Assembly (NCBI GenBank): GCA_019310865.1
Contig: JAFDDL010000033.1
Span: forward strand, 1-14,476
Direction: 5' to 3'
From: Deltaproteobacteria bacterium
GTDB lineage: Bacteria > Desulfobacterota > Desulfobacteria > Desulfobacterales > JAFDDL01
Length of the DNA: 14,476 nucleotides
Below are positions 1 to 14,476 of the stretch, piece by piece. Made by a program: the position numbers and the translations under genes. Within the stretch, counting starts at the first letter, position 1. Each line of letters opens with the position of its first letter. The notes beneath the pieces were generated by a model. That model worked only from the letters and a program-made list of their open reading frames with translations. It was not told the DNA's origin and searched no databases.

Positions 1-1688
1 CAGATGATGGGAATCTCCAAGCAACTGGGATGCTGCACATCATGATATAGCGTAATTTCAGCAGTGCGCGCGTCCTTGCCGGATTCTTCAGCCACCACAC
101 CGCCGCTATTGTAGTTTTTTTGAAAGTACCAGGTGCCGGGGGGACTGATCAGCACGCGCAATCGGCTGCCCCTGGCGATTCGTCTGGAAAAAAACGGAAA
201 TTCGCCAAAAACATATGCATTGATTTCGCCCGGTTTTACCAACGTTTCTCGGCTGTTCGATTCTCTGTATCTGGCTCTCAGAAAATCCTGTGACAGCCGG
301 ATCTGCGTTCCATCCGCCAACACTTCAAACAAAACAACCTGAAAATCCGTATCCGGTACATTCATGGCGATCCATAGCTTCGCTTTGACAAAACCGGTAA
401 TTTCCTTTTCTTCTTCAAACACAGGGCTATGATATATCAGCCCGTTGTTTTTAAGACTGAGCACAAAACGCTGGTCTGTCAGGTAGTCGTCGGTCTGATT
501 CCGGGAGGGATCGATCGGATGGTCCAGGGGGTTGTAAACATAGCGGTCGGGGAGGGACTGCCCTGGTCTGTCGGTTTGCATTCCCCCTGCATTAAACACA
601 TCATGGGCCTTGCCGCAGCTTGAATTCAGGAAGTATTTTTGCGCTTTGGCCGGGATGTCGTCAAGACTGTCGGCATATTTCCACGCTTCGGCCCCCATCA
701 CATAATAGGTTATCCGTTTTTTTAGAAATTCCGGTTTGGGGCCGTTCTTCAGCGTCCAGTCGTACCATTTTTTATGCAACTGGTTGAGGTCCCGTTTGGA
801 TTTCTTGTGAAATTTCAAGCCGCCGACTTCCAACGCCGGGTTGCTTACACCGCCGTGGTCCCACGGACCGAGGAGTAAATAATGTTTTGTTTGTCCCGCA
901 GGCAAACCGTGGGTCATGTGCATCTGGAAATGTTTTACCGCAGCGGGTTGAGTATCGTCATAATGTCCGCTGATGGTCAAAATTGGTATGTCGATTTTTT
1001 TATATGCTTCAATCGTTAAATTTCTGTCACGATAAAATGAATCAACCGTCGGATGCCCAAGGACCGTCTGGAAAAACGCAGACGGAAAGCCGGCTATTTT
1101 GTCCAGCTGATTGAACGGCAGGTGGTTGGCTTCAAGCTCATCATAGATTCCCGTCCAAAAGGTTTCGTCACCACTGATGTTATCATTGGCGGTCCTGCCG
1201 GAAACCCCCACCCACCATTGAAACTCTTCTCCGATAAAAATATTTTTCAGCATCGGGGTTACCATTCCCGCGTAGGTGGCCGCCCCCGGTACGATGGACT
1301 TGAGGTGGGGTGGATAATGTTTCAATGTTGTCCACTGAATCCCCCCCAAAAAGGATGCCCCCCGCATGGCCACTTGGCCGTCACACCAGAGTTGTGCGGC
1401 AATCCATTCCACGACATCATAACCATCTAGTCCGTTTTCAAAGCCATCGAATTGGCCTTCGGAATTGCCGCGGCCCCGATTATCCACTGCCACGTAAACA
1501 TACCCGTGTTGGGCAAAGAACATCCCTCTATCATGCAGACTGTCTGCGATATACGGTGTGATTGAGAGGATGGCCGGGACGGGATTATTGTCTTTGGGCT
1601 TGTATAAATTCGCACTGAGAAGAATGCCGTCACGCATGGGAATTTTTACATCCCACGTAAAATCCACTGCTACATTGTTTTTTCCCAT
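1..1688 (-). CDS. CocE/NonD family (X-Pro dipeptidyl-peptidase S15-like) serine hydrolase, 3' end outside window
   Basis: The frame is open from an ATG at 1688 to the window edge, giving about 562 residues, so only the extreme C-terminus is missing. It reads as an alpha/beta hydrolase of the CocE/NonD type. Visible motifs are D-N-R-G-R-G-N-S-E-G near residues 69-78, the nucleophile elbow G-A-S-F-L-G with Ser112, G-H-Y-D with Asp244, and G-P-W-D-H-G with His278. These match the order and spacing of the Ser/Asp/His triad in cocaine esterase and alpha-amino-acid ester hydrolases. A beta-rich PepX_C-like domain starts near residue 415. No signal peptide is evident, so it is probably cytoplasmic. 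The start lies 6 nt after the CPBP stop and its AGGAG is about 15 nt upstream inside that gene, so translation is probably coupled. Family members hydrolyse esters or amides of diverse acyl compounds; the substrate here is unknown. Confidence 0.9.
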   Translation of the reverse strand, partial: MGKNNVAVDFTWDVKIPMRDGILLSANLYKPKDNNPVPAILSITPYIADSLHDRGMFFAQHGYVYVAVDNRGRGNSEGQFDGFENGLDGYDVVEWIAAQLWCDGQVAMRGASFLGGIQWTTLKHYPPHLKSIVPGAATYAGMVTPMLKNIFIGEEFQWWVGVSGRTANDNISGDETFWTGIYDELEANHLPFNQLDKIAGFPSAFFQTVLGHPTVDSFYRDRNLTIEAYKKIDIPILTISGHYDDTQPAAVKHFQMHMTHGLPAGQTKHYLLLGPWDHGGVSNPALEVGGLKFHKKSKRDLNQLHKKWYDWTLKNGPKPEFLKKRITYYVMGAEAWKYADSLDDIPAKAQKYFLNSSCGKAHDVFNAGGMQTDRPGQSLPDRYVYNPLDHPIDPSRNQTDDYLTDQRFVLSLKNNGLIYHSPVFEEEKEITGFVKAKLWIAMNVPDTDFQVVLFEVLADGTQIRLSQDFLRARYRESNSRETLVKPGEINAYVFGEFPFFSRRIARGSRLRVLISPPGTWYFQKNYNSGGVVAEESGKDARTAEITLYHDVQHPSCLEIPII

Positions 1689-1694
1689 TCGGTT

Positions 1695-2636
1695 TTACGG
1701 TTGCTCCTGCAAACATTTCCTTAAACCCAATCCGGCCCCAGCCAGCCAAATGATGACCAGGACGATTACAAGCTTTAGCAGGTTTAAAACATCAAACTGA
1801 AGAAAGATGGTATGGTTGTGGCCGATCATATCTCCTATGTAATTGCTTAAGCCATGGATCACGATGACCGGGATGAGGCTCCCGCCCAGCCGATTGAAAA
1901 AATAAGCCAGGATAATCGTATGCAGGGTCGTCCCTAGTATAAAATTGAGTTGTTGAACAAAGTATTCTCCATAGCTGGTGATATAGGGAATATCACGCGG
2001 GAAATGCCAGACCCCCCATAAGATGCCAAGCAGAACTGCGGCCGCCAGTGGTGTTTTCATTTTTCCTTGCAGATAGGGCAATGCGTATCCTCGCCACCCC
2101 CCTTCTTCCAACAAGCCGCCACAATCGAAAAACGCAGCCAGAACAAAAAAGAACACCATCAGCAAGGGGGCATCCACCCGTAGATTGGCCAGGGATATCT
2201 GGAAGGCCTCTCCCCCGGAAATAAAGGCATTATACGCAAGAAGTATTCCCAGGTAGGCCAGGGCGCCTGCCAAAATAATACCGTAGGTTTTCAGTGCGTC
2301 TTTTCTCTCAACGCCATCGCGCCATGGCTTGAAACGGCTGAAAAACAGGTGCAGGCCCTTTTTTCGGGTTGTATACCAGATCATGATCAGCCCGGCTACG
2401 GTGGGGGCTGCCGGAAACAGGATGGCCGGCGCCAATAGCGGATATTTAAACGTCAACGAGAGGGGAACAAATACACTGAAATGGTTTATTCCAAGATTTT
2501 TTTGTGCCTCATCGAATATCTGCGCAATATCCATGGGCGCGAATGTGAACATCCAGAATGCCGCCCCCATGGCAATGAATAGGGCAAGAACATAAAAAAT
2601 CCAGAACTGTTGCCGATGGATAAATTCCTTAATCAT
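1695..2636 (-). CDS. CPBP family intramembrane glutamic endopeptidase (CAAX protease/Abi-like)
   Basis: This is a 313-residue polytopic membrane protein with about eight hydrophobic segments, roughly at residues 10-32, 60-88, 115-138, 155-172, 195-211, 235-250, 252-270 and 285-305. All three CPBP motifs are present: E-E-x3-R at Glu177/Glu178/Arg182, a hydrophobic stretch ending in W-H at His211, and H-x3-N at His261/Asn265. Family members are inner-membrane proteases; bacterial ones are linked to bacteriocin processing or immunity and to membrane-protein maturation, but most have no known substrate. A GGGGGG tract 6-11 nt upstream of the ATG serves as ribosome binding site. It is the first gene of a two-gene operon with the CocE-type hydrolase. 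That pairing does not reveal its target, and a role in processing the adjacent enzymes is speculation. Confidence 0.9.
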   Translation of the reverse strand: MIKEFIHRQQFWIFYVLALFIAMGAAFWMFTFAPMDIAQIFDEAQKNLGINHFSVFVPLSLTFKYPLLAPAILFPAAPTVAGLIMIWYTTRKKGLHLFFSRFKPWRDGVERKDALKTYGIILAGALAYLGILLAYNAFISGGEAFQISLANLRVDAPLLMVFFFVLAAFFDCGGLLEEGGWRGYALPYLQGKMKTPLAAAVLLGILWGVWHFPRDIPYITSYGEYFVQQLNFILGTTLHTIILAYFFNRLGGSLIPVIVIHGLSNYIGDMIGHNHTIFLQFDVLNLLKLVIVLVIIWLAGAGLGLRKCLQEQP

Positions 2637-2704
2637 GGCTGACCCCCCAAATTCAAAGATACCGCTCTACCGAGCCGTGTTGCCTGTGGAAATGCTGATG
2701 GTAT

Positions 2705-2786
2705 TTAATAAGGCAAACGGTGGGGAAAAGTCAACATAAAAATGAACTTTTGTTACATATTTTTATAATATGAATATTTTTGTTAC
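2705..2786 (-). promoter_or_regulatory. Promoter of the CPBP-CocE operon with two upstream direct repeats
   Basis: On the minus strand, GTAACAAAA occurs at 2786-2778 and again at 2756-2748, 30 nt apart, with a small AT-rich palindrome between them (CATATT/AATATG arms at 2756-2761 and 2767-2772 on the plus strand). A -35 TTGACT follows at 2734-2729, then TATTAA at 2710-2705 (18-nt spacer, 4 of 6 consensus bases). The predicted transcript would start about 60 nt before the CPBP ATG. The same arrangement occurs at 14227-14305. Repeats just upstream of the -35 are typical activator sites, but the regulator is unknown. Confidence 0.55.
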
Positions 2787-3593
2787 TTATTTGCCTTTAA
2801 AGACCGGTTTCCTTTTTTCCAGGGCAGCGGAAATAGCCTCTTTGATGTCTTCCGAAATCAACGCCGCGGCATTTTTCTGTGCGACATATTTCAATCCAGC
2901 GTCCACGCCGTAATCCCGACTATAGAGTAGAACATCCTTGGTGCCTTGAATAGTGAGCGGTGCACAGGAGGCCACCTCTTGTGCCAGTTTCTCCGCCTCC
3001 AGGAAAAGTGCTTCTTTTGTATCCGAGATGCGGGTAACCAATCCCATCTGAAATGCCTCTTCAGCCGTAAAATCCCTTCCGGTGAGGGCCAACTCCCTGA
3101 ACCACCCGTGACCGATGATGTGCGGCAGCCGCTGCAGGGTTCCCAAGTCGGCAACAACCCCCATTTTGGCTTCCCGAATACTGAAAATCGCATTCCTCGA
3201 AGCGATGCGGATGTCGCAGGCGCTGATCAAATCGACCCCCGCGCCGAGGCAGTAACCGTGGACCGCTGCAATCACCGGCTTGGTGCACCGCTCGACGGCC
3301 GTCATGCTCATCTGGCCCCGCAATATTTCTTTTCGAAGCGACTCCCGGGTGTCCGCGGCCCCATCACCGGATAGGGAGCTCAATGTTGCCAGGTCGATAC
3401 CGGCGGTAAAACATCTGCCTTCCCCCTTGATGATCACCACCCATATGTCCGGATCACCGTTAATTTGGTTAAAAACATCTCGAATTTGGTCAAAACCGTC
3501 CAGTGCGATGGTATTCAACTTCTCGGGACGATCCATGGTCAGCCGGGCAATATGCCCATCGCGTTCAACTTTGATAAAGTCTTTTTCACTCAT
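2787..3593 (-). CDS. Enoyl-CoA hydratase/isomerase family protein, delta3,5-delta2,4-dienoyl-CoA isomerase-like
   Basis: This crotonase-fold protein has 268 residues. The oxyanion-hole segments are A-G-I-D-L near residues 64-68 and H-G-Y-C-L-G-A-G at 112-119. Asp121, Glu141 and Asp149 are spaced 20 and 8 residues apart, exactly as the active-site Asp/Glu/Asp of mammalian ECH1 (176, 196, 204), and the following G-T-L-Q-R-L-P also matches that subgroup. It therefore probably shifts conjugated double bonds in an unsaturated acyl-CoA, letting beta-oxidation proceed. The ATG at 3593 is chosen because AAAGGAGC sits just upstream; the frame stays open to 3752, but that stretch holds the promoter. 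No other beta-oxidation genes are in view. Plain enoyl-CoA hydratase activity is the alternative. Confidence 0.88.
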   Translation of the reverse strand: MSEKDFIKVERDGHIARLTMDRPEKLNTIALDGFDQIRDVFNQINGDPDIWVVIIKGEGRCFTAGIDLATLSSLSGDGAADTRESLRKEILRGQMSMTAVERCTKPVIAAVHGYCLGAGVDLISACDIRIASRNAIFSIREAKMGVVADLGTLQRLPHIIGHGWFRELALTGRDFTAEEAFQMGLVTRISDTKEALFLEAEKLAQEVASCAPLTIQGTKDVLLYSRDYGVDAGLKYVAQKNAAALISEDIKEAISAALEKRKPVFKGK

Positions 3594-3663
3594 TGGTTGC
3601 TCCTTTATGGTGTCACAACAGATTCGATTGATTGAGCCTAACACAACGGCAACAGGCAATTCA

Positions 3664-3706
3664 ACAAACATTATATTTATTTTACTTTGCAACACAATGT
3701 TTGTTA
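3664..3706 (-). promoter_or_regulatory. Promoter of the crotonase gene bracketed by a 10-bp inverted repeat
   Basis: AACAAACATT at 3664-3673 and its exact complement AATGTTTGTT at 3697-3706 are separated by 23 bp. On the minus strand a perfect TATAAT lies at 3676-3671 and overlaps one arm. A weak -35, TTGTGT at 3698-3693 (16-nt spacer), overlaps the other arm. Arms about 33 bp apart, roughly three helical turns, covering both promoter elements look like a repressor operator. The predicted leader is about 70 nt. Confidence 0.5.
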
Positions 3707-3752
3707 TACTAACGTCAGTTTCAGTTTTGTTTTGCGTTTTCCCATCGACCAT

Positions 3753-4007
3753 GACCCGACCCCGGCCAAATCACAAATATGGGCTCTTGGCGGTGTGCGG
3801 TAGGGCATTGACAAGGCTAAGCCTTGGGCATAAACTGGCCCGAAGAATAGGTTCCATAAAATGGCAGAAACTGTCTGTCAGCCCCAAATCTTAAGACAGT
3901 GGAGGCATTGCCTTTACCGGCGTGATCACGGCTTAACCCCAAACCAGGCTCGCCGGAAGGTTATGGCGGTTGAGCCGCTAAAAACGAGCCAATCCTGCCA
4001 TACGGGC
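3753..4007. other. Non-coding stretch of unclear origin, probably decayed DNA
   Basis: No convincing gene is present in either direction between the crotonase promoter region and the broken binding-protein gene. The stretch is rich in short inverted repeats: AAGGC-TAA-GCCTT at about 3814-3826, ACTGTCT/AGACAGT arms near 3869-3901, a perfect 10-bp palindrome CGTGATCACG at 3921-3930, and the larger hairpin at 3930-3976. This density suggests the end of a mobile or repetitive element, but no transposase or terminal repeat can be named. Confidence 0.4.
3930..3976. repeat. Imperfect long hairpin with RYYYAAC/GTTRRRY-type ends
   Basis: GGCTTAACC (3930-3938) pairs with GGTTGAGCC (3968-3976) over 9 bp with one G-U wobble. 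A second stem, CCAAACC (3939-3945) against GGTTATGG (3959-3966), follows with bulged C3967 and T3961 on one arm and one A-A mismatch. The ends GCTTAAC and GTTGAGC satisfy the integron attC core consensus, and bulges on one arm are an attC trait. At about 45 nt it is shorter than normal attC sites, and no integrase or cassette array is visible. No T-tract follows on either strand, so it is not a standard terminator. Confidence 0.35.
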
Positions 4008-4414
4008 TCAACGGGGAAAACCTGAAGCATAGCAGAGGAAAAAATGGTCCAGCGAATTGAAAAAGGTCTTTGCGGTATCTGCCCTGCCGGTTGCGGGATC
4101 AAGGCCGTTGGCTCTAAGCGTTGAGCAGACATTCTGGAACTCTTGCCATGTTTTTGGCTCTTGCGGTTTGTATTTTTTAAATATTTTTACGTTATACCAT
4201 ACGCCGTTTAACATTTGCATACCCAGAGGCACCGCATAGGCATTGCCATTAAAGCACATGGTATTTCTAATATTTTCGGGAAAGATTTCATCCGCCTGTA
4301 CATCATACCATTTCGAGAAACAGTATTTTTTTCTTCTTTGTGATTATTAACCCAGAGGATCACTGAACCGGAAAACACTATGAGTATCAGTATAATAACA
4401 AATATGCTTTTCAT
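4008..4414 (-). pseudogene. Remnant of a family 1 extracellular solute-binding protein gene (sugar ABC transporter type)
   Basis: An ATG at 4414 begins a typical signal sequence (M-K-S-I-F-V-I-I-L-I-L-I-V-F-S). After about 29 codons the frame changes at an A7 run (4326-4332). The other frame then reads W-Y-D-V-Q-A-D-E-I-F, N-G-N-A-Y-A-V-P-L, G-V-W-Y-N-V-K-I-F and P-K-T-W-Q-E-F, the recognisable middle of a family 1 solute-binding protein, until a TGA at 4008. Adding one A to the run would join the frames, but even then only about 130 of the usual 400 or more residues would exist: most of the N-terminal lobe and everything after the P-K-T-W region are gone. The start has no clear ribosome binding site, and no permease or ATPase genes are adjacent. 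It is a decayed fragment, not a functional transporter gene. Confidence 0.75.
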
Positions 4415-4446
4415 GGGAATTTCCCGATTCAGTGCCTCAACTAAAC

Positions 4447-5739
4447 TTACTTATTTTTTTGCCGTTTTTTTTCGGACACATTCAGCTTTTCAACAAGCCA
4501 GTTAACCATATGTGGTTTGGCAACCGGCATGTAACACGGCGCACAGTGATGTCCCTGGCCTAGTACCCAGGTTTCGCTGTTAGCCGCAGCCTTTTCCACC
4601 AATTCGATATCCTCTTCCGACACAACCGCATCGTTGGTGCTGTGAACAATTAGCAAGGGTGTCTGAATGGTTTCTTTTCCTGTGCCGACAACACCTTGAG
4701 ATATAAGGGAGAATTCACTGGACAGTCGTAACATCGCCTCTCTTTGCCCGGCATTGCTCTCGTCTGGTTTATCAAATATAGCCGGATCAAATCCCATACT
4801 TCGAATTGTCGAGTAAACCATGGCGCCAGGAGCAGAGTGCAGCACAGAACGCATTGCTTCCGGAGTGACCTGAAAAGCCGAATGAACTATTCCGCAGTGA
4901 TCAACTACAGCCTTTAAACGTTTCTCATCCGCGGCCATTCTAATGGCGTAGTATCCCCCAAAACTTCCAGCAAACATACCGATGCGGTTAAAATCATATT
5001 CACCACCGGCCTCGAAATAATCCAAAATGCGCTTGTGCAACTTGTGAGAGTCCGGCCGTAGCAACCAATCCGTACTTTCACCGGTGCCAGCCAGGTCGAA
5101 AGCCGCAACTGCAATACCTTTGGGGACTAGTGACTGTGCGGTATCCTTACACCCTTCCTTGGAACCGTCGATACCGCCTGTGCAAAGTACCAACCCCGGT
5201 TTCTCAACCCCTTTTGGTTTGTATAGGTGAACGATGATTTGTTTTCCTTCAAAAGGAACCTTTACGACTTCAAATGGATAGGCCAGATACTGATTCATCT
5301 TTAAGGCGAGATCGCGGAAACGGATAAAGGACTTTCGCTCAGAAGGTGAATAATTACCGGGTAAATACCCCCTGCTATATACAGATATCGCCTTTTCGTA
5401 GTTTGTTAACGCCTCTTGGATTTTGTTTACTTTTGCGAGCTTATCACCCAGAGCTTCGTAATTGTCCCCTACAAGCCGCCATTCGTATGACCACACACCC
5501 GGTCCATCACCCTCGATGTGCTTGATTTTCGCAAGGGTCGTTTCAATAGTCTCTCGATCACCAGTCGTGAGAATCAGCCCTTCAATGCGGCCCCCTGCGA
5601 CCAGCAGTTCACCTTTCAGGGACATCATCTGGGCATTTACCCGGGGCGACAAAAGAACAAGTGCAAGGAACACGACAGTTACAATATAACTTACGATCCC
5701 AAGTTTCTCGAAGTGAAGTTTCCATTTTCTATTAAACAT
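4447..5739 (-). CDS. Exported alpha/beta hydrolase, FrsA/2,6-dihydroxypseudooxynicotine hydrolase-like
   Basis: This protein has 430 residues. A hydrophobic segment at about residues 16-31 ends in V-N-A before Gln37, a plausible signal peptidase I site, so the enzyme is probably periplasmic. Residues 65-155 look helical, as in the cap of FrsA/DHPON-type hydrolases. C-T-G-G-I-D-G-S-K-E-G at 186-196 resembles the oxyanion loop of that group. The nucleophile elbow is A-G-S-F-G-G (Ser259), the acid is probably Asp370 in H-S-T-N-D, and the base is His397 or His398 in G-Q-G-H-H. AGGAG about 6 nt before the ATG supports the start. It lies 112 nt downstream of the TonB receptor on the same strand and may be co-transcribed. 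Next to a ligand-sensing receptor, a role in hydrolysing the imported compound, such as an ester siderophore, is reasonable but unproven. Confidence 0.85.
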   Translation of the reverse strand: MFNRKWKLHFEKLGIVSYIVTVVFLALVLLSPRVNAQMMSLKGELLVAGGRIEGLILTTGDRETIETTLAKIKHIEGDGPGVWSYEWRLVGDNYEALGDKLAKVNKIQEALTNYEKAISVYSRGYLPGNYSPSERKSFIRFRDLALKMNQYLAYPFEVVKVPFEGKQIIVHLYKPKGVEKPGLVLCTGGIDGSKEGCKDTAQSLVPKGIAVAAFDLAGTGESTDWLLRPDSHKLHKRILDYFEAGGEYDFNRIGMFAGSFGGYYAIRMAADEKRLKAVVDHCGIVHSAFQVTPEAMRSVLHSAPGAMVYSTIRSMGFDPAIFDKPDESNAGQREAMLRLSSEFSLISQGVVGTGKETIQTPLLIVHSTNDAVVSEEDIELVEKAAANSETWVLGQGHHCAPCYMPVAKPHMVNWLVEKLNVSEKKRQKNK

Positions 5740-5772
5740 AACATCTCCTAACTATTTGATTCATGATAACAA

Positions 5773-5815
5773 TTAAACGTTTTTCATCTGCGGCCATTCT
5801 GATGGCATAGTATCC
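5773..5815 (-). pseudogene. 43-bp remnant of a second copy of the exported hydrolase gene
   Basis: This segment matches 4914-4956 inside the adjacent hydrolase gene at 39 of 43 bases. Read in the hydrolase frame both encode G-Y-Y-A-I-R-M-A-A-D-E-K-R-L. The four differences (TAT/TAC, ATC/ATT, GCA/GCG, GAA/GAG) are all silent third-position changes. The piece is therefore a scar of a diverged paralogue that was under coding constraint, not a random repeat. It lies between the receptor stop and the hydrolase start. Confidence 0.7.
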
Positions 5816-5836
5816 ACACTGGCCAATACCAGTGTG
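5815..5836. terminator. Stem-loop after the TonB receptor gene, no T-tract
   Basis: CACACTGG (5815-5822) and CCAGTGTG (5829-5836) form a perfect 8-bp stem with a 6-nt loop, starting 15 nt past the receptor stop codon. It lacks the run of T expected of an intrinsic terminator on the minus strand, so it may act as an mRNA-stabilising or attenuating hairpin between receptor and hydrolase rather than a full stop. Confidence 0.4.
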
Positions 5837-5851
5837 ATGCCGATAAAAATG

Positions 5852-8572
5852 TTACATGTTGATCTTAAGGCGCACACCGAAGGTTCGGGGACGCCCGACT
5901 TGGGAGATCGGAAGCCCCACCGAGAGCGAACCCTCCGGCTCGAGGCCAACCATATCCAGATCACTTTCACTACCAGCAGCTCGATAAATGATATCTTCAT
6001 CGAGCAGGTTGTCGACAAAAAACGTCAGCTGCCAATTCTCGCGTTCGATGCCGGCACGAAAATTGACGATCTCATATGCCGGTGTGTCAGGGTCGTTCGT
6101 CTGAAGGCCCGCACGCGATTCACCCGAATAGGAATAGCTGGTGCGGACGAAACCCCATAGCGTCTCTGAAAAAAGAAAATTATATTGCACCGCGGTGTTG
6201 AACAGGAGCTCAGCGGCATTTGGAATCGATGTTCCGGACGGCACCGTTCCACCTGATAATTCAAAATCATCGTCCGTTTCCGCTTGCAGGAAAGTGGCCC
6301 CGGCGGTCCATGAAAGGCCCCTGATCGGTCTCAGATAAAACTCAAGATCGACTCCCATCGAATGTGCGTCGCCTACATTGCCGGTGGCTCCCCCTGCACC
6401 AGCGACACCTGACGCGACCTCGGCCTGCAAATCTTTCCAATCCATGTAATAGGCGGCCATATTTAGCCGGGCGCGATCCTGCCAGAAGGTTCTCTTGAGG
6501 CCGATTTCATAGTTGCTCAAGGTCTCCGGGTCAAAAAACGGCGGCGCATCGGTCAGCAGAAAAACATTTTGACCGCCGCTGCGAAATCCCTTGGAATATT
6601 GCGCATAGGTCATCAAATCGTCCGTAAATTTGTACCGAAGCAGCAGCTTGGGATTAAAGATGGTCTCGTCGCCGCTAGACGTAAACATACCTCTTGAGAT
6701 CCCAGACGCCTCAAGAAAATATCCATCCGAGGTTGTCACCGCATCACGCTCTTCTAAAAAGAAACGCCCCGCCCCCGTTAGGGTCAATTTTTCAGACAAA
6801 TTATAAGATATTTCGCCAAACCCGGCATATTGTTCGAAAGTGCCACTGGCATCCACCACTATTGACGCCGCCGGCGAACCGGCAAACCCTGGAATCGGCA
6901 GCAATCCTATTGAGGCCTCAAAATCGCGATCCGGGGCTGGTATGGCATCCCCATCCAAGAAATATCGCTGTTCCTGTTTTTTATAAAATGCACCCAAAAC
7001 CCATTGCCATGGCCCATCACCGGTAGACACCAACCGCAGCTCCTGGGAAATCGCTTCCGAGTTGACAATTATATCAAGTATCACGCCATCCGGCGTAATG
7101 TAGTTCGGCCCCGGCAACCCAAACATGGGCATCAAGAAGTCCAAGGCCCCAAAGAGAGGAACAACGGAAGCCGTGAGCGGTGAGAAGTCCATGATACCGG
7201 TTATGTCCCGGTCAAAATGGGATGTGGACGAGATCAGCTCGGCAAAGGGGAAATCATAGGCCACCGTCAGGTTCAGCCCCAAAAGTTCATCATCTGCAAA
7301 CTCCTGCGTTAATGAGTGCTTGTCTCCTTCACGCGTCGCATAATTCTCCCGGTTGGCGTCCGTGTTTGAATACAATACCATCCCATCCAAGGTCAACCGG
7401 TCCGACGGCGTTGCGCGCAGTGCCATCCGCCCGGAAATCGTCTCATCATCATTTGCATCCTTCGCACGCACGGCATCGCTGTGGGGATCCAAAATGTCAA
7501 TCCATCCTCCGTTTTCTTGGTATGAGCCGATTAAACGAATCGCCGCCTTGTCCTTTAACAATGGCACGTTCACCATGGCATTGACAGTCGAGCTGGTTGC
7601 CCCACCTTTCGTGTCTGCATAGCTAAGATCAACCCAAGCATCCACTGCGGTGGTGTCCGGCTTGTTGGAAATCAGTCGGATGGTTCCGGCCAGGGACCCT
7701 TCACCGTATAACGTGCCCTGGGGACCACGCAAAATCTCCACCCGCGCCACATCTAAATTCGCGATATCTGCAAACCATCCGGCCATCGTCAATGGTAATT
7801 CGTCCAGGTAATACCCCACGGTCGCTCCCGGTCCCCCTTGTATCCGGGACAACTCTGAGATTCCTCGTATGTTAATATCCCCCCGTCCCGCACCTTCTCT
7901 ATTGCGAAACTCAACACCCGGTAGGGACTCCACCAAGTCTCCAAAATTTCGCGCACCGATAAAATTCAGTTCATCCTCGGAAAAAGCGGTGATTGCCTGG
8001 GGAATATCTTGCATTCTTTCCGCTCGTTTGGTGGCAGTAACCACCGTGTCTTCGAGGATGTAATCGTCGTGGGATTCGCTTTCAGGTTTTTTAGTCAGTG
8101 ATTTCGAAACGTTGTCAGGTTGAGTGGCCTGGTCGGTATTGTCCGCTTGCGAAGTGGTTGGAAGCGATTCCACTTTTTTATTTGAGTCTGTGGATGCATC
8201 GACCTTGGGTTTGGAGTTTACCTCCGCTTGGCTGTGGTTTTTCCTGATGGAAATCGTGGTCTGGCTGGTCATTCTGAAGGCTAATCCGGTCCCCTTCAAC
8301 ATAATATCCAGGGCTTTTTCTGGGGAGTAATGGCCCATCACGGGCCGGGTGATGACATGGCCGATGTTTTTTAGGGAATAGAGCATGCTGTACTTGGTTT
8401 GCTCCGCGAACGAGTCCAAGGCCGCGCTAAGCTCCTGGGATGGAATATCAAATTGAACCGTTTTCCCCAAAACACTCTGGCTACTGAAAACTACTGCACA
8501 TGCCAAAATTAAGAAACCCGCCAGCCGCAAAAAGTTTCCATCTTGATGACCCTTGATCAATGATACCTGCAT
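5852..8572 (-). CDS. TonB-dependent outer-membrane receptor with N-terminal STN signalling domain (FecA-type transducer)
   Basis: This is a 906-residue receptor. A signal peptide occupies about residues 1-36, with its hydrophobic core at 15-30. An STN (secretin/TonB short) domain spans about 38-111, beginning V-Q-F-D-I-P-S-Q-E-L. A polar Ser/Thr/Lys-rich linker runs from 112 to 170. The TonB box is D-T-V-V-T-A near 175-180. The plug covers about 183-305 and contains L-R-G-P-Q-G-T-L-Y-G, and the rest is a 22-strand-type barrel. An STN domain marks receptors that signal to a FecR-like anti-sigma factor, and exactly such a pair is divergently encoded next to it. The ribosome binding site AAAGGAGG is strong and close to the ATG. 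Known ligands of the class include ferric siderophores, haem, cobalamin and glycans; the ligand here cannot be assigned. The protein ends in Met rather than the usual aromatic residue of the barrel terminus. Confidence 0.95.
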   Translation of the reverse strand: MQVSLIKGHQDGNFLRLAGFLILACAVVFSSQSVLGKTVQFDIPSQELSAALDSFAEQTKYSMLYSLKNIGHVITRPVMGHYSPEKALDIMLKGTGLAFRMTSQTTISIRKNHSQAEVNSKPKVDASTDSNKKVESLPTTSQADNTDQATQPDNVSKSLTKKPESESHDDYILEDTVVTATKRAERMQDIPQAITAFSEDELNFIGARNFGDLVESLPGVEFRNREGAGRGDINIRGISELSRIQGGPGATVGYYLDELPLTMAGWFADIANLDVARVEILRGPQGTLYGEGSLAGTIRLISNKPDTTAVDAWVDLSYADTKGGATSSTVNAMVNVPLLKDKAAIRLIGSYQENGGWIDILDPHSDAVRAKDANDDETISGRMALRATPSDRLTLDGMVLYSNTDANRENYATREGDKHSLTQEFADDELLGLNLTVAYDFPFAELISSTSHFDRDITGIMDFSPLTASVVPLFGALDFLMPMFGLPGPNYITPDGVILDIIVNSEAISQELRLVSTGDGPWQWVLGAFYKKQEQRYFLDGDAIPAPDRDFEASIGLLPIPGFAGSPAASIVVDASGTFEQYAGFGEISYNLSEKLTLTGAGRFFLEERDAVTTSDGYFLEASGISRGMFTSSGDETIFNPKLLLRYKFTDDLMTYAQYSKGFRSGGQNVFLLTDAPPFFDPETLSNYEIGLKRTFWQDRARLNMAAYYMDWKDLQAEVASGVAGAGGATGNVGDAHSMGVDLEFYLRPIRGLSWTAGATFLQAETDDDFELSGGTVPSGTSIPNAAELLFNTAVQYNFLFSETLWGFVRTSYSYSGESRAGLQTNDPDTPAYEIVNFRAGIERENWQLTFFVDNLLDEDIIYRAAGSESDLDMVGLEPEGSLSVGLPISQVGRPRTFGVRLKINM

Positions 8573-8665
8573 ACGCCCTCCTTTAACTCGATTCGTTATT
8601 AAATGTTAAAGTTGAATGCCACAAGAAAAATATTGCCCTCTTAGTTACTTAAACGAATGCACCGA

Positions 8666-8713
8666 AAAACAGGTGAATGTTTTTTTTAAATTTATTTTTT
8701 TGTCACCTGTTTT
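8666..8713. promoter_or_regulatory. 11-bp perfect inverted repeat in the receptor/sigma divergent promoter region
   Basis: AAAACAGGTGA at 8666-8676 and TCACCTGTTTT at 8703-8713 are exact complements separated by a 26-bp, almost pure A/T spacer. They lie in the 206-bp intergenic region (8573-8778) between the receptor gene and the sigma factor gene. The right arm covers the -35 position expected for the TATAAT at 8731, so the repeat could be an operator. It does not resemble a Fur box. It could equally form a long RNA hairpin if transcribed toward the receptor gene. Confidence 0.5.
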
Positions 8714-8736
8714 AGTCCCTGTTCGTTATATATAAT
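8708..8736 (+). promoter_or_regulatory. Probable promoter of the sigma/anti-sigma operon
   Basis: A perfect -10 TATAAT lies at 8731-8736, about 43 nt before the sigma factor start. The -35 position (8708-8713, TGTTTT) is poor and is covered by one arm of the inverted repeat, which suggests dependence on or blocking by a regulator. No confident promoter was found for the receptor on the opposite strand; it may use the cognate ECF sigma factor. Confidence 0.4.
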
Positions 8737-8778
8737 AGAGGGTTTTTTTATTGATCGCAGTCCGGTCGAGGTGATACG

Positions 8779-9345
8779 TTGAGATATTCCGATACAAACA
8801 TTGCGGCAAACGGTATAAAAATGGTGTTTTTTCAGGATATGAAAGTCCCCAACGTTATCGCAGCGATGTATGAGAAATATAACGACCGGTTGTATTATTT
8901 CATAGAACGCCACTTGGGCTCAAAGGACGAGGTCGAAGATGTGGCCCAGGAAGTTTACCTTCGTCTTATCCGGCACCTTGAACGTCACAACCTGACCCCC
9001 TCGTTTGCTCTGCTGAGAACCATCGCAACCAATCTGATGACGGATCGGTTTCGCAAACGACGGTTACAATCGGCTGATATGCACGTGCCGTTGGAGGAAG
9101 TTGAACTGGCGTCCCAGGATGCAACACCCGAGGAGGTGGCCTGGTCCCGAGAGGGACTCAGAATGATCAAGGACGTGTTTGACGGTTTGAACACAAAGAG
9201 TCGCGAGGCGTTTATCCTTCACCGTTTCAGCGGCCTAACATATGAACAGATTGCCAATGAGATGGGAATTTCCAGAAGTATGGTTCAACGCCACATATCC
9301 CGTGTACTGCTTGAGTTGGACAAAAAATTCGAGACGGAAAAATGA
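8779..9345 (+). CDS. RNA polymerase ECF sigma factor, FecI-type
   Basis: This 188-residue protein has the two ECF domains. Region 2 covers about residues 25-66 and includes the conserved D-V-A-Q-E-V-Y-L-R-L. Region 4 covers about 134-184 and carries the helix-turn-helix in T-Y-E-Q-I-A-N-E-M-G-I-S-R-S-M-V-Q-R-H. It should direct RNA polymerase to the divergent receptor promoter when the receptor is occupied. The chosen start is TTG at 8779, with GAGGTGAT just upstream; an ATG at 8839 (preceded by AGGA) would give a protein 20 residues shorter and closer to typical FecI length. The stop overlaps the FecR start in ATGA, so the two are translationally coupled. Most FecI-type systems respond to ferric siderophores, but related ones sense glycans or other ligands. 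Confidence 0.92.
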   Translation: MRYSDTNIAANGIKMVFFQDMKVPNVIAAMYEKYNDRLYYFIERHLGSKDEVEDVAQEVYLRLIRHLERHNLTPSFALLRTIATNLMTDRFRKRRLQSADMHVPLEEVELASQDATPEEVAWSREGLRMIKDVFDGLNTKSREAFILHRFSGLTYEQIANEMGISRSMVQRHISRVLLELDKKFETEK

Positions 9346-10469
9346 AGATTACTTATTTCCACAATAAATTGGATAAACGGTATCGCAAAGAATCCACAGA
9401 AGCCGTGGAATGGGTTCTGAAATTGAAATCAGGGGAGTTGCCACCTGAGGACCAGGCGCAATTCGATGCATGGCTATGCGAAAGCTCCAAGAACGCTGAA
9501 AAGTTCAAATTAATCAACGCATTATGGGAATCCACCGAAACATTGCGTGAGGACGCGTTCACTTCTCAAGTGATGAATCGACGCGGTGTCACGGAAAAAG
9601 AACAGCCTGCCAGAGAAAAACCGATTCAATCCCTGACAAAACAAACACGCTTCCGGTGGGCTGCTTCAGCGGCAGCCCTGCTGGTCATCATAGTGAGCGC
9701 GGTTCTGACCCAGAGCTACCTGGGCACCGAAAAGATGTATCGGACGGATACCGGCGAACAGCGATCGATTTATTTTGACGACGGGTCGTTTATCCATCTC
9801 GACTCGGAAACCCATATTGCAGCCGCCTTTGATGAAAAAATACGCCATATAGACCTGGAAAAAGGACGGGCCCTGTTTTCAGTAGCGCATGATCCGAACC
9901 GGCCCTTCGTCGTCACTGTGGGCACCATAAATGTCCGGGCCTTGGGCACCAAATTCAACGTCGATAAATTGGATGACATGAGGGTCGCCGTGGCGGTGAC
10001 CGAGGGAAAGGTGAAAGTCACCAAGGCGAAAGATGACGAGGTCCTGGGCAAAAAGATCCCATTCGCTACGATAGAGGCGCCCCAACCAAAACCGGGAAAA
10101 AGCATCGCTCAATATAATGAAAAAATGGAAAATCTCCGAGCCGAAATCATTAGTACCGGCGAAGCCATCGTAGTGGACGATCGGGAGAAGAAATACCAGG
10201 TCAAGCAGGTGAATCTAAAACAGGCCAACGCATGGCGCGAAGGAAGGCTGCACTTCTCGAAAGCGCATCTACCTGACGTGATCGGCGAGATCAACCGCTA
10301 CCTGAAAAAGAAGATCGTCATTGGCGATGAGCGCCTCAATGATGTTGAAATCAACATGAATTTCGACATCAAGCACTGCAAATATTTTCTAGACACCCTT
10401 CATGACGTCGTACCAGTGACTAAGCATACCGATTCCCACAATCGGATTGTGATCGCAAAAAGGGATTGA
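9342..10469 (+). CDS. FecR-family anti-sigma/sigma regulator
   Basis: This is a 375-residue single-pass inner-membrane protein. Residues about 20-65 form the cytoplasmic DUF4880-like anti-sigma region (E-W-V-L-K-L-K-S-G). One transmembrane helix lies at about 106-127. The periplasmic FecR domain runs from about 132 to 226, with R-S-I-Y-F-D-D-G-S and G-T-K-F-N-V-D as landmarks. A C-terminal DUF4974/STN-like domain at about 300-375 is the part expected to contact the receptor's STN domain. Compared with a standard FecR there is a charged insert at about 228-295 rich in Lys and Glu. It overlaps the sigma gene by 4 nt. Its role is to hold the sigma factor and release or activate it when the receptor binds ligand; receptor, regulator and sigma factor together form a complete cell-surface signalling system. 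Confidence 0.93.
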   Translation: MKITYFHNKLDKRYRKESTEAVEWVLKLKSGELPPEDQAQFDAWLCESSKNAEKFKLINALWESTETLREDAFTSQVMNRRGVTEKEQPAREKPIQSLTKQTRFRWAASAAALLVIIVSAVLTQSYLGTEKMYRTDTGEQRSIYFDDGSFIHLDSETHIAAAFDEKIRHIDLEKGRALFSVAHDPNRPFVVTVGTINVRALGTKFNVDKLDDMRVAVAVTEGKVKVTKAKDDEVLGKKIPFATIEAPQPKPGKSIAQYNEKMENLRAEIISTGEAIVVDDREKKYQVKQVNLKQANAWREGRLHFSKAHLPDVIGEINRYLKKKIVIGDERLNDVEINMNFDIKHCKYFLDTLHDVVPVTKHTDSHNRIVIAKRD

Positions 10470-10538
10470 AATCAGATATTGTTGGTCACAATCGTGGGCC
10501 AGCTGCTCGTTACATCTTGAGCGATGGATCAGCGATAG

Positions 10539-11759
10539 TCACTTTTCGAAATAGACTATCTCATGATTTTGCGGACTTGGACCAGGTAAATGTCCCACTA
10601 TATGGTTTGATATTTCGCTTTTCTCTCCGTCTTTAATCACCAACCTGGGAATTAAAAATAATTCTCCAGGCACCTGATTTCCTGCCCGGCCGTCCTGGAA
10701 AAGAAAGTCGCCCTTCTTCATTTCAATAATAGTTATATCGGCGGGGCTTCCAACCTTCAGATTACCGCATTCACTTTCCGCCGAAAGCATTTTCGCTGAG
10801 TTGCTTGTGGCCATGGCAATCGTCGATTCAAGAGAAACACCCAATGCAACGAACTTGCTCATGATGGCAGCCACATTGTAAAAATGAGGTTGCGCTGTAT
10901 CCAGTTTCACCACATCCGTTCCCAGGGCATGCGGCAAAATACCCCCTTGGATGGCCTTTCCAGCAACCTTGAAGCTGAAATGGCCCTTTCCCGGGGCGGC
11001 ATCCAGCAAAACACCGCGAGATAAGGCATCTTCAAGGCCAGGAACCGGGATTCCACCCGGTAAAAACACACCACCGGGGTTATCGGTAAAGGCATGGGTT
11101 AGGATATCTCCTTTTTCGAGCAATCCCAACAGGCTTGCAATAAAATCATCAATTGTCCGCTTGGAAAGCGTTTCATTGCGATCCATCCCCAAGTGCACCA
11201 TCAAGGGCACACCAGCTCGGTCAGCTATTTTTTTTGCCTTTTCCGGAACGCTCGCCTGGTTGGCATGAATCAGCTCTCCAACCGCCCGGATCTTAATACC
11301 GCGTATGACATCACGATTGGATTCAATGATGTCTATAATCTTGTCTTCCTGTAGAACTTCGTAGCCAATTTCAGGCAAAATCGCCTCTCCGAAAGGCGCC
11401 ATATGGACAAACGAATAGACACGCGTTTTCGCGCGGGGCCAAATGTACTTACGAAACATGTGAAAATTTAACCAGCCACAGCTCCCGGCATCATTAACGG
11501 TGGTCACACCGGTGGTTATCCCCGCCTCATCCGGATCGACCGATAACGGTATCACGTCCGGGGCAACATGGGCGTGAAGATCGATCAAACCCGGTGTTAC
11601 CAACATCCCTTTGGCATCAATGATCTCCCCGGTGTCAGCAGGCAATTGTTTGCCGATTTTCTCAATACATCCGTTGCTGACAGCGACATCCCTTATACCA
11701 TCAATCCCCTGCGCAGGGTCCACGACTCTGCCGCCTGTAATGATCATGTCTGTTTTCAT
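10539..11759 (-). CDS. Amidohydrolase/deacetylase family metallohydrolase (COG3964, dihydroorotase-like)
   Basis: This 406-residue enzyme belongs to the amidohydrolase superfamily. Metal-site residues are visible in order: H62-A-H64 after strand 1, Lys156 (probable carboxylated bridge) in I-K-I-R-A, His189 in M-V-H-L-G, His222 in L-T-H-A-F, and catalytic Asp282 in L-G-T-D. G-V-T-T-V-N-D-A-G-S near residue 85 is typical of the COG3964 deacetylase branch. Characterised members remove acetyl groups from N-acetyl D-amino acids or acetyl-(R)-mandelate; dihydroorotase activity is unlikely. It is the last gene of the three-gene operon. The ATG at 11759 is preceded by GGGG; a GTG at 11768 would add three residues and sits 6 nt after the previous stop. 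No signal peptide is seen, so it is probably cytoplasmic. The exact substrate is unknown. Confidence 0.9.
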   Translation of the reverse strand: MKTDMIITGGRVVDPAQGIDGIRDVAVSNGCIEKIGKQLPADTGEIIDAKGMLVTPGLIDLHAHVAPDVIPLSVDPDEAGITTGVTTVNDAGSCGWLNFHMFRKYIWPRAKTRVYSFVHMAPFGEAILPEIGYEVLQEDKIIDIIESNRDVIRGIKIRAVGELIHANQASVPEKAKKIADRAGVPLMVHLGMDRNETLSKRTIDDFIASLLGLLEKGDILTHAFTDNPGGVFLPGGIPVPGLEDALSRGVLLDAAPGKGHFSFKVAGKAIQGGILPHALGTDVVKLDTAQPHFYNVAAIMSKFVALGVSLESTIAMATSNSAKMLSAESECGNLKVGSPADITIIEMKKGDFLFQDGRAGNQVPGELFLIPRLVIKDGEKSEISNHIVGHLPGPSPQNHEIVYFEK

Positions 11760-11774
11760 TTTCCCCACGCTACT

Positions 11775-12971
11775 CTATTGATACGGTTTCGGGGCTGGAT
11801 CAAGCCACTCAACCAGTTTATCTTTCAAACGCCACGCCATAAAAAAATTACCGGCCGGTGTATGGTGCCCATTATAAAATGGCGTTAAAAACGAATCAAT
11901 ATCCACTTTAAATCGTTTATATTCTTCGCGAAAAATGTCTCTCATATCAATAACCGGGTAAGGCTTGTTTTTCAGCCAATCCACAAAACTTTGATCAAAT
12001 CGTGGTTTATTATGCAGCTCGCGAGCGATATTATCCTTTCGGAAAGAAAGAATAATCATGAATTTTTTTCCACTTTCCTTAATAAAATTTTCCGTCCACG
12101 AAACGATGTTCTTGGATGCAAATAAGGCCGCTTCCGTATGGATTTTTTTTATTTGTAAGGCAATTTCCGTGTTTGTAATTGTTTCCTCTGGTATACCAAA
12201 ACTAACCGGCACGGGATTATTTAATTCCATTGAGCCTTTACTCGCCCCTCTTCCGGCCATGACCAACTGAAGAATGGGATCGTTTTCGAACGCAGCCCAA
12301 AGAAAATCCTTATCGCGAAGTTTAAAAACATCTTCCCGCGTCTTTAGTAAATTTTCCATTTGCTCACATCGGTTGTTTTTTACGTCCACGCGCAAATGCG
12401 GCAGCGTAAATCCACAATCTGATCCTTGTCCAAACCGAATGGATCGCCAAGCATCCAAACTTCGATAATGATCATCATCCCAAATGTTTAATATAATGTA
12501 CTTCGCACCCTTTTGTTTCTCTACTTTAAGCATTCGGCGATAGGCCTGATAAACACTGTACCCACCCACACCATAATTGCGAATCGGTTCCTGCAGATGT
12601 GCGGCCAGATATTCTTCCCAGGTTTCCCCATCATTGACTTGATCGCAATGCGTAAAACTGTTTCCATAGGCGTGAATGCGACACAGCTTGTCTGGAAAAT
12701 TAACCACCTTTCTGGCCCCATCGGACTCATAATGATAAAAGGTTTTTGAATGGTCCACACCATCCGGTGTCATGGCATCACAATGAATCCAACCCAGTTC
12801 GGCGTCATATGTCCATCCATTGGCGTGTTTCATGCTTTCTTCAGGCGTCATACGGCGTGTGAACTGAATGGTCCTTTCCCGAGTGGGCAGAATGGATTGT
12901 AAATACGCGTTTGCGCTATCCGGATTGAAAGCGCCAAACTCTTTTTGATCATTCCCTGATTTTTGTGACAT
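11775..12971 (-). CDS. SGNH/GDSL-type hydrolase-like protein
   Basis: This 398-residue protein has an SGNH-like core from about residue 95. Block I is Y-G-N-S-F-T with Ser105, block II is N-Y-G-V-G-G-Y-S (Gly near 136), block III is I-L-N-I-W-D-D-D-H (Asn162), and the C-terminal block is N-G-H-H-T-P-A-G at 367-374 with His370 as likely base. In the usual D-x-x-H block the Asp is Asn here (Asn367), so the triad is altered and His would act with Ser alone or with another acid. A family-specific N-terminal extension of about 95 residues precedes the core, and a helical insert lies at about 200-300. No signal peptide is seen. Its ribosome binding site is weak and it starts 15 nt after the C45 gene. 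It probably removes an ester-linked acyl group; acyltransferase or non-catalytic roles are possible. Confidence 0.78.
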   Translation of the reverse strand: MSQKSGNDQKEFGAFNPDSANAYLQSILPTRERTIQFTRRMTPEESMKHANGWTYDAELGWIHCDAMTPDGVDHSKTFYHYESDGARKVVNFPDKLCRIHAYGNSFTHCDQVNDGETWEEYLAAHLQEPIRNYGVGGYSVYQAYRRMLKVEKQKGAKYIILNIWDDDHYRSLDAWRSIRFGQGSDCGFTLPHLRVDVKNNRCEQMENLLKTREDVFKLRDKDFLWAAFENDPILQLVMAGRGASKGSMELNNPVPVSFGIPEETITNTEIALQIKKIHTEAALFASKNIVSWTENFIKESGKKFMIILSFRKDNIARELHNKPRFDQSFVDWLKNKPYPVIDMRDIFREEYKRFKVDIDSFLTPFYNGHHTPAGNFFMAWRLKDKLVEWLDPAPKPYQ

Positions 12972-12986
12972 CTTATCATTGCCCCA

Positions 12987-14123
12987 TTAAAAGTGGTAAG
13001 TTTTAAATGGTGTTGTACAAGGCGGCCCCGGGGCGATGTGAAACACCGGAGAGCTGCTCAGTTCCATAATCATACAACCTAATGTGATGACATCCTGGGT
13101 TCTCGAATCGTCCGGATGGCGACAAACCGGGCCTTCGTGGGAACTGAAAGCGGCTTTCATGTCATCGATGGTCGGTTGCATGGCCGGATCGTTTAATCGC
13201 TTGTCCAGCTCCTCGAAACGCGGGATGGTACTGCCGGCGAATGCGGGCATCAGCTTGTCTGAATTTTCTGTTACTCCCATGGCCTTTCTGTAAATTCCCT
13301 GGTCATCGTTTACAAGGGGATGGTTGGTATGTACAAGTCGGTCCGTGATGTCAGTCGGTTTGTATTCCACTACCTTGTTCGCTGACGCCTCCAGGTTGAT
13401 GGCCCGGCTGCCAGGTTCGGCAATAACATAATTCTGGCCCGAAGCGTGAGAAATAGCGTGTATAAATTCCAGGCCTTTTTCAAGAATGGGTTGCTCCAGA
13501 AATCCCCGCACCACAAAATCCTCCGGTAAACCCTTTTTGCTGTAATCTAGCTGACTCAAGGTATTGCAGCAAATCGATACCCCATTGCTGTTCATGCCGC
13601 AGAGGTTTATTTTGCCCGGCACGGCAAGGTTGAAGATTTCCACGGGCAGGTCCGGTCCCTTGTGGTGGAATAGTGTCTGGTGGCCGTCGTACCAGACCGG
13701 TGTATCCATGTTCTGGCCGATCATGGTTGGATGCCTATCGGTGGCATTCAAGCCAATGGATGAACATCCCCGCCCGCTCGTCATGGCCATCTTTTTCTCG
13801 CGACGGTACCAGGGCTCTTCATCGCTCAACTGGCGGGCGAGTACATAGCGGAAATCGATGCCGGCGCCTTCGGCGATCCCCCTCACCTCTTCCAGCAGGC
13901 CGGGCGTCCACCGTTTAATGGCGGGAATGAAATTGGTTTCAGAAAGCAGCTGGGCCAGATATGTTTCCATATCCAGACCGGTGTCGCTGTGCATATTTTG
14001 TTCCCAGCGGTCCCGGTGCTCGCGTATCATATCCTTCAGGGTTTCACCGTGCGCGCGACCTCGCTCACGGGGCGACTTACCTTCCAGAACGATAATCGGC
14101 AACCCTCTATTTCTTTCGGACAT
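12987..14123 (-). CDS. C45 family autoproteolytic acyltransferase/amidohydrolase (isopenicillin N acyltransferase-like)
   Basis: This 378-residue protein is an Ntn hydrolase. The self-cleavage site is G-R-G-C-S-S-I-G, cutting before Cys120, which would become the N-terminal nucleophile; the alpha chain would be about 119 residues and the beta chain about 259. Other family landmarks are R-G-R-A-H-G-E near 21-27, G-Q-N-M-D-T at 136-141 after the nucleophile, and G-M-N-S-N-G-V-S in the middle. Family members cleave or exchange linear amide bonds: penicillin side chains, N-acyl amino acids or peptide-like amides. The ATG at 14123 is chosen for its AGAGAGG site; a GTG at 14183 would add 20 polar residues and is less likely. 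It is the first gene of the operon with the SGNH and COG3964 genes. No signal peptide is seen. Confidence 0.9.
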   Translation of the reverse strand: MSERNRGLPIIVLEGKSPRERGRAHGETLKDMIREHRDRWEQNMHSDTGLDMETYLAQLLSETNFIPAIKRWTPGLLEEVRGIAEGAGIDFRYVLARQLSDEEPWYRREKKMAMTSGRGCSSIGLNATDRHPTMIGQNMDTPVWYDGHQTLFHHKGPDLPVEIFNLAVPGKINLCGMNSNGVSICCNTLSQLDYSKKGLPEDFVVRGFLEQPILEKGLEFIHAISHASGQNYVIAEPGSRAINLEASANKVVEYKPTDITDRLVHTNHPLVNDDQGIYRKAMGVTENSDKLMPAFAGSTIPRFEELDKRLNDPAMQPTIDDMKAAFSSHEGPVCRHPDDSRTQDVITLGCMIMELSSSPVFHIAPGPPCTTPFKTYHF

Positions 14124-14276: not shown

Positions 14277-14305
14277 TTGACTTTCAACAAGCCCTAACTT
14301 ATGAA
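14277..14305 (+). promoter_or_regulatory. Promoter of the plus-strand membrane protein gene
   Basis: TTGACT at 14277-14282 and TATGAA at 14300-14305 are separated by 17 nt; the -35 matches five of six bases and the -10 four. The -35 begins 21 nt after the start of the second repeat core. The leader to the ATG at 14398 would be about 85 nt and includes a tiny reading frame. Confidence 0.5.
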
Positions 14306-14349: not shown

Positions 14350-14382
14350 ATGAAACTAAGACGCGGTTGCTGCCGACGATAG
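14350..14382 (+). CDS. Possible 10-residue leader peptide ORF
   Basis: An ATG preceded by AGGGGTGGGTAAA opens the short frame M-K-L-R-R-G-C-C-R-R and ends in a TAG that overlaps the AGGAGG ribosome binding site of the next gene. The overlap would allow translational coupling or attenuation. With only ten codons, chance occurrence is quite possible. Confidence 0.25.
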   Translation: MKLRRGCCRR

Positions 14383-14397
14383 GAGGTAAGGATTACC

Positions 14398-14476
14398 ATG
14401 AACAATCACAACGTTTCTTTCTGGCCGTTTTATATTCTTGCGGTTTTAATCGGCATCTTCGGGGTGCTGTGGATGG
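14398..14476 (+). CDS. N-terminus of a membrane protein, cut by the window end
   Basis: Twenty-six codons are visible from an ATG with AGGAGG 11 nt upstream. The sequence begins M-N-N-H-N-V-S-F-W and turns into a hydrophobic helix from about residue 10 (Y-I-L-A-V-L-I-G-I-F-G). This looks like the first transmembrane segment of a transporter or other integral protein. It is transcribed divergently from the C45 operon, so a permease for that operon's substrate is a fair guess, but too little is visible to name a family. Confidence 0.7.
   Translation, partial: MNNHNVSFWPFYILAVLIGIFGVLWM

Follow-up and report, generated by a model that had tools for sequence, protein, structure and literature searches.

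A paired direct-repeat promoter module in CPBP-protease gene clusters and a candidate RpiR-type regulator

Two repeat sites and the genes around them

The window, meaning the whole stretch of 14,476 bases that was analysed, contains two intergenic sites, S1 and S2, in which a nine-letter word occurs twice on the same strand upstream of a -35-like hexamer (Table 1). At S1, on the minus strand, the copies of GTAACAAAA start 30 nt apart and TTGACT begins 22 nt past the start of the second copy; at S2, on the plus strand, the copies of GCAACAAAA are 29 nt apart and TTGACT follows 21 nt past the second. The far repeat of S1 begins immediately past the stop codon of the upstream enoyl-CoA hydratase gene. 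The word G[CT]AACAAAA is found four times in the entire window, each time at one of the two sites, and two of the three occurrences of TTGACT belong to them as well. The repeat pair itself gives two matches in the window, compared with a mean of 0.00 and a maximum of 0 in 200 dinucleotide shuffles. An earlier note on this DNA had reported the same repeats, hexamers and spacings, all of which are reproduced exactly, and had proposed chance recurrence as a test; the pair is absent from 200 of 200 shuffles of the window. The bare core GYAACA shows no enrichment, with 17 occurrences against 13.5 expected and 39 of 200 shuffles reaching 17, and the signal therefore resides in the pairing and spacing of the repeats.

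Table 1. Coordinates of the features at S1 and S2 and of the neighbouring genes (on the minus strand, a feature starts at its higher coordinate)
Feature	Position in window	Strand	Basis
S1 far repeat GTAACAAAA	2778..2786	-	exact word match
S1 near repeat GTAACAAAA	2748..2756	-	exact word match
S1 TTGACT, -35-like hexamer	2729..2734	-	exact word match
S1 best -10 candidate TATTAA	2705..2710	-	4/6, 18 nt past TTGACT
S2 far repeat GCAACAAAA	14227..14235	+	exact word match
S2 near repeat GCAACAAAA	14256..14264	+	exact word match
S2 TTGACT, -35-like hexamer	14277..14282	+	exact word match
S2 best -10 candidate TATGAA	14300..14305	+	4/6, 17 nt past TTGACT
CPBP-type membrane protease, first gene after S1	1695..2636	-	PF02517, 54.1 bits (cut-off 22.4)
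CocE/NonD family hydrolase, second gene after S1, cut by window edge	3..1688	-	TIGR00976, 282.9 bits (cut-off 66.3)
Start of second CPBP-type gene, after S2, 26 codons, cut by window edge	14398..14475	+	N-terminal similarity
C45 family hydrolase, divergent from S2	12987..14123	-	NF040521, 172.3 bits (cut-off 85)

The gene after S2 had been described as a membrane protein in an unrelated region. Its 26-codon fragment instead begins like a second CPBP protease. In a database made up of the proteins collected for the analysis, the fragment matches two CPBP proteins, P0007 and P0008, at their N-termini (68% across 19 residues, E values of 2e-9 to 3e-9) and the first CPBP protein of the window more weakly (45%, E 0.001). 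S1 and S2 thus each stand upstream of a CPBP-type gene, and the relation between the two regions lies in the genes that they would control. The promoter scan returned no strict sigma-70 match at either site. Together with the 4/6 matches of the best -10 candidates, this would suit promoters that are activated.

A 10-codon frame (MKLRRGCCRR; 14350-14382, plus strand), read by eye in the interval from S2 to the second CPBP gene, stops shortly 5' of a GAGG sequence resembling a ribosome site and could encode a leader peptide. Elsewhere in the window, a TonB-dependent receptor with an STN domain, an ECF sigma factor and a FecR-like protein form a surface-signalling set of the FecIRA type (5852-10469), and two short frames (3926-4414, minus strand) resemble, by eye, pieces of a broken ABC-transporter solute-binding protein.

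Conservation and rarity of the module

Relatives were collected by scanning an alignment of 11 CPBP proteins, drawn from 83 found, against a genome collection, which yielded at least 79 loci. Two of these are the close CPBP relatives among the matches listed: L001 (JAOZRI010000038.1, genome G001, labelled as a Desulfobacula MAG), with a CPBP protein 81% identical to that of the window, and L002 (JAOZSM010000033.1, genome G002, labelled as a Neomarinimicrobiota MAG), with one at 72%. Both derive from GMC6 isolates and their bin labels may be wrong; the rounded genome sizes are 3.0 and 3.2 Mb for G001 and G002, respectively. In L001, a third site (S3, minus strand, 3623) consists of GCAACAAAG, followed after 29 nt by GCAACAAAA and after a further 22 nt by TTGACTTT. 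The gene downstream of S3 is epimerase-like, its best NCBIfam match, L-Ala-D/L-Glu epimerase, falling under its cut-off; S3 is divergent from a run of serine hydrolase, MFS, CPBP and CocE genes, the first of which contains a stretch of N. In L002, a fourth site (S4, minus strand, 1886) shows GCAACATTT, then GCAACACTT 28 nt on and TTGACA another 22 nt on, and sits between the CocE gene and an RpiR-type regulator gene. S4 was first spotted by eye in the printed intergenic sequence between these two genes; a 9-mer weight matrix built from the first three modules missed it in L002 and gave its top rank to an unrelated place (290).

The core of the module can accordingly be written as GYAACA, a second GYAACA 28-30 nt on and TTGAC[T/A] 21-22 nt beyond, the last element being present in all four modules. 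The distance from the first repeat to the -35 element is 52, 50, 51 and 50 nt at S1, S2, S3 and S4, respectively. The -10 candidates of the relatives score 4/6 at 17 nt or 5/6 at 15 nt (S3) and 5/6 at 17 nt (S4). An AT palindrome between the repeats had also been proposed as part of the module; the spacers are 77-96% A+T, and palindromes at least as long as those observed arise in 56% (S1), 12% (S2), 52% (S3) and 94% (S4) of spacer shuffles, which for the two window sites is chance level in DNA of this composition. On the contig of L001, two additional CPBP-like genes are present on the minus strand (9813-10637 and 12127-12768), the latter cut by the contig end and 46% identical to the CPBP protein of the window.

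Outside these clusters, the complete arrangement is very rare. A relaxed wide pattern including the -35 part, whose core and widths were set only after S4 had been seen by eye, gives one match in the whole of G001 and one in the whole of G002, at S3 and S4, and none with the reversed control. A stricter pattern, also with the -35 part, matches one of 297 genomes of the phylum of G001, namely G001 itself. Among the CPBP loci, the core module with the -35 part occurs in 2 of the 79 among the matches listed (1.09 Mb), which are L001 and L002. A scan of 94 sources (1.15 Mb) returned eight rows that correspond to four distinct sites, all in the three clusters of the window, L001 and L002; the surplus rows are overlapping loci of the same places, and the reversed control gave none. 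Specificity drops when the -35 part is left out of the pattern: the scan of G001 and G002 recovers the module of L001 plus one unrelated place in G002, the reversed control yields one match in G001, and the 94 sources (1.15 Mb) contain four further distinct pairs beyond the modules, so that repeat pairs lacking the -35 part also arise by chance.

Comparison of the sequences establishes the module with its spacing and shows that it is confined to these clusters. A shared operator that is cluster-specific and conserved is well supported on this basis, as is a single shared regulator that would act at both promoters of the window. The earlier note had attributed both sites to one regulator and had named conservation in related genomes as a test; the arrangement is kept once each in the two closest relatives and is very rare elsewhere, which lends support to that proposal. 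The paired-repeat module most likely marks where a single local gene switch binds.

An RpiR-family protein as candidate regulator

In both L001 and L002, the cluster that carries the module also encodes an RpiR-family protein with HTH_6 and SIS domains. The two proteins share 69-73% identity and are orthologous. Such a protein is encoded in 2 of the 79 CPBP loci among the matches listed, each examined over at most about 17 kb, and these are the same two that carry the module. The module carriers are also the closest relatives, and the co-occurrence thus partly reflects shared ancestry. No RpiR gene lies within the window, and the corresponding gene of this genome would be located outside it. 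No orthologue was detected in any of 17 genomes chosen from those holding the other 77 CPBP loci, which contain more distant CPBP relatives. In overlapping genome samples around G001, G001 itself, which served as the positive case, is the only match at high identity (1 of 86, 1 of 389 and 1 of 395); one sample of 389 genomes contains five further matches at 28-34%, and the 245 genomes around G002 yield G002 and one match at 30%. The 984 plasmid records that match the protein all remain below 60% identity, and viral contigs gave no match. The protein database holds 22 RpiR entries at 53-100% identity, the L001 protein included. Two of these (86% and 82%) are at roughly the distance expected for the lineage of the window, whose CPBP and CocE proteins are 81% identical to those of L001, which is no more than suggestive. 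Across 21 RpiR orthologues the HTH region hardly varies, consistent with recognition of a single DNA word. The region upstream of the RpiR gene of L001 itself contains no module.

An SxSGxT-type phosphate loop in the SIS domain marks a phosphosugar ligand. All 21 orthologues carry ISFG at this position and lack such a loop, compared with SSSGST in chain 4ivn, which we take to be NanR of V. vulnificus. Chain 3sho, also named as RpiR family, likewise lacks the loop, so its loss is not unique to these orthologues. The ligand of the candidate is probably not a phosphosugar, and the accompanying genes, which encode an epimerase-like enzyme, an M42 aminopeptidase and hydrolases of the CocE and C45 families, suggest a compound derived from peptides or amides instead. 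C45 orthologues of the window protein are absent from G002, and G001 contains one relative at 33% on another contig.

It is proposed here, with somewhat better than even confidence, that the module combines a promoter with an operator of paired direct repeats and that one local RpiR-type regulator binds both repeats and probably activates transcription. In this model, the operator consists of two GYAACA words on one strand, 28-30 bp apart with AT-rich DNA between them, the nearer one 21-22 bp 5' of TTGAC[T/A]. A single locus-specific regulator would occupy both words and thereby control genes of the CPBP, CocE and epimerase types, and the RpiR-family (HTH_6 and SIS) protein encoded in the clusters of the relatives is its most likely identity. 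With TTGAC taken as the -35 element, the near repeat would be centred near -53 and the far repeat near -83, close to three helical turns apart. A dimer or tetramer of the regulator could then lie beside the contact region of the polymerase alpha subunit and aid promoters with weak -10 boxes. RpiR is the best regulator candidate, and the position of S4 adjacent to the RpiR gene of L002 speaks for it; from the present comparisons we infer both its identity as the binder and its activating role.

Several characterised RpiR-family regulators allow for comparison. SpNanR of Streptococcus pneumoniae is an RpiR-family activator of sialic acid operons. In its published model, it binds upstream of the -35 element, becomes tetrameric once the ligand is bound and may extend to a half-site adjacent to that of the alpha-CTD (PMC12713135, preprint). 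Family membership, a site upstream of the -35 element near the alpha-CTD (UP) site and a local catabolic cluster with several sites are features in common; as described there, the SpNanR operator differs in being an 18-bp near-palindrome about 55 bp upstream of the -35 element rather than two direct repeats, and the SpNanR ligand is a sugar phosphate (PMC12713135). The available text on carbon metabolism in Pseudomonas gives TTGT-N7/8-ACAA as the operator of HexR and TGTAGT/ACTACA as that of RccR (PMC5489143). These RpiR-family members likewise use short conserved words with a spacer of variable length (RccR has sites of 15 and 28 bp); the difference lies in the pseudo-palindromic form of their operators and in KDPG as the ligand (PMC5489143). 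Within the accessible parts of further reports, GlaR is described as another RpiR activator (PMC6528599), the sialic acid genes of C. perfringens are preceded by a conserved element resembling an inverted repeat (PMC4509764) and the pneumococcal NanR operator is palindromic (PMC12713135). At the four modules, no inverted-repeat operator of the HexR, RccR or NanR kind was found, and the conserved words are direct repeats, a type absent from the published RpiR operators compared, as far as the available texts describe them. This speaks against classing the operator with standard RpiR sites; its direct-repeat layout is the strongest argument against RpiR and would be the chief novelty if RpiR proves correct.

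A more far-reaching version, which we advance only tentatively, holds that RpiR regulators without the sugar-phosphate loop form a separate branch, which responds to a compound derived from peptides or amides and switches on scattered genes for CPBP proteases, CocE hydrolases and epimerase-like enzymes via two direct repeats nearly three helical turns apart. The finding is ordinary in kind and the operator layout is unusual. For an uncharacterised cluster of CPBP protease, CocE hydrolase, epimerase-like enzyme and C45 hydrolase, known here from metagenome assemblies alone, it supplies an operator that can be tested and names a candidate regulator, and it links the second CPBP gene with the CPBP-CocE operon at a distance of 12 kb. 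Should the RpiR link be true, the family gains a direct-repeat operator and probably a non-phosphosugar ligand. A literature search for a cluster combining at least three of CPBP, dipeptide epimerase, regulon and RpiR found no report.

Alternative readings and distant clusters

Promoters of the AraC/XylS type usually carry two direct repeats just upstream of the -35 element, about 21 bp apart, and serve in the activation of catabolic operons. The repeats could accordingly be operators for another regulator encoded elsewhere, for example of the AraC type, a reading that is unlikely but deserves serious weight. It shares with the module the tandem direct repeats 5' of the -35 element, a layout that sets the module apart from the palindromic RpiR operators in the available texts. 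The repeat distance of 28-30 bp differs from that of AraC/XylS promoters; RpiR is moreover the only regulator gene recognised among the ORFs listed for L001 and L002 and co-occurs with the module, and no AraC-family gene was recognised, by reading, in the lists of the window, L001 and L002.

Since -35 boxes of ECF sigma factors often contain AAC, the GYAAC words might be -35 elements read by the FecI-type ECF sigma factor of the window (8779-9345). FecI and FecR are both encoded in the window, and the GYAAC of the near repeat stands 16-17 nt 5' of TTGAC. The far repeat would have no role in such a promoter, and G002, a MAG of completeness not given, holds S4 with no FecR relative detected, which makes this reading very unlikely. 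The FecR relative of G001 (36%) is on another contig.

A single mobile or duplicated promoter might also have given rise to both S1 and S2, making them alike by descent rather than through a shared regulator; in favour of this, each precedes a CPBP-type gene. The lengths of their spacers differ, and agreement between S1 and S2 is little better than in shuffled sequence, both in the spacers (14/23 against 12.0 and 9/15 against 7.0) and over the 40 bases downstream (10/40 against 10.9). The same holds for the spacers and downstream 40 bases in most module comparisons, the largest excesses, both downstream, being 18/40 against 12.4 (S3-S4) and 17/40 against 12.6 (S2-S3). With spacers and downstream DNA unconserved, the modules are not recent promoter copies, and common descent is a highly improbable account of the likeness. 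What is held constant across the modules are the letters and the spacing of the repeats and of TTGAC. AT-rich promoters with UP elements and no specific regulator would fit the composition of the spacers and the TTGAC-type -35 element; they would keep neither GYAAC nor the 28-30 bp repeat distance and are given very little credence. Chance resemblance is close to negligible: the module was picked by eye and promoter-less pairs do arise (the unrelated G002 pair, the reversed control in G001 and the four in the 94 sources), set against 0 of 200 shuffles, the recurrence in L001 and L002 and the near-absence elsewhere.

The association of C45 and CPBP genes extends beyond the window. C45 proteins 64-65% identical to that of the window occur together with CPBP genes in L003 and L014: in L014 (Pseudomaricurvus, 6886-9041) the two genes are adjacent, and in L003 (a Cellvibrionales MAG, 1624-12468) C45, CPBP, a beta-lactamase-type serine hydrolase and an MFS gene form one cluster. 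By reading, these two clusters carry TetR-type and IclR-type genes instead of an RpiR gene. Among the Acidobacteria-labelled loci L004-L011, several carry, beside a distant CPBP gene, relatives of the MFS and serine hydrolase genes of L001 and of its epimerase-like gene (the last at 24-26%); these loci represent an older gene set lacking the module.
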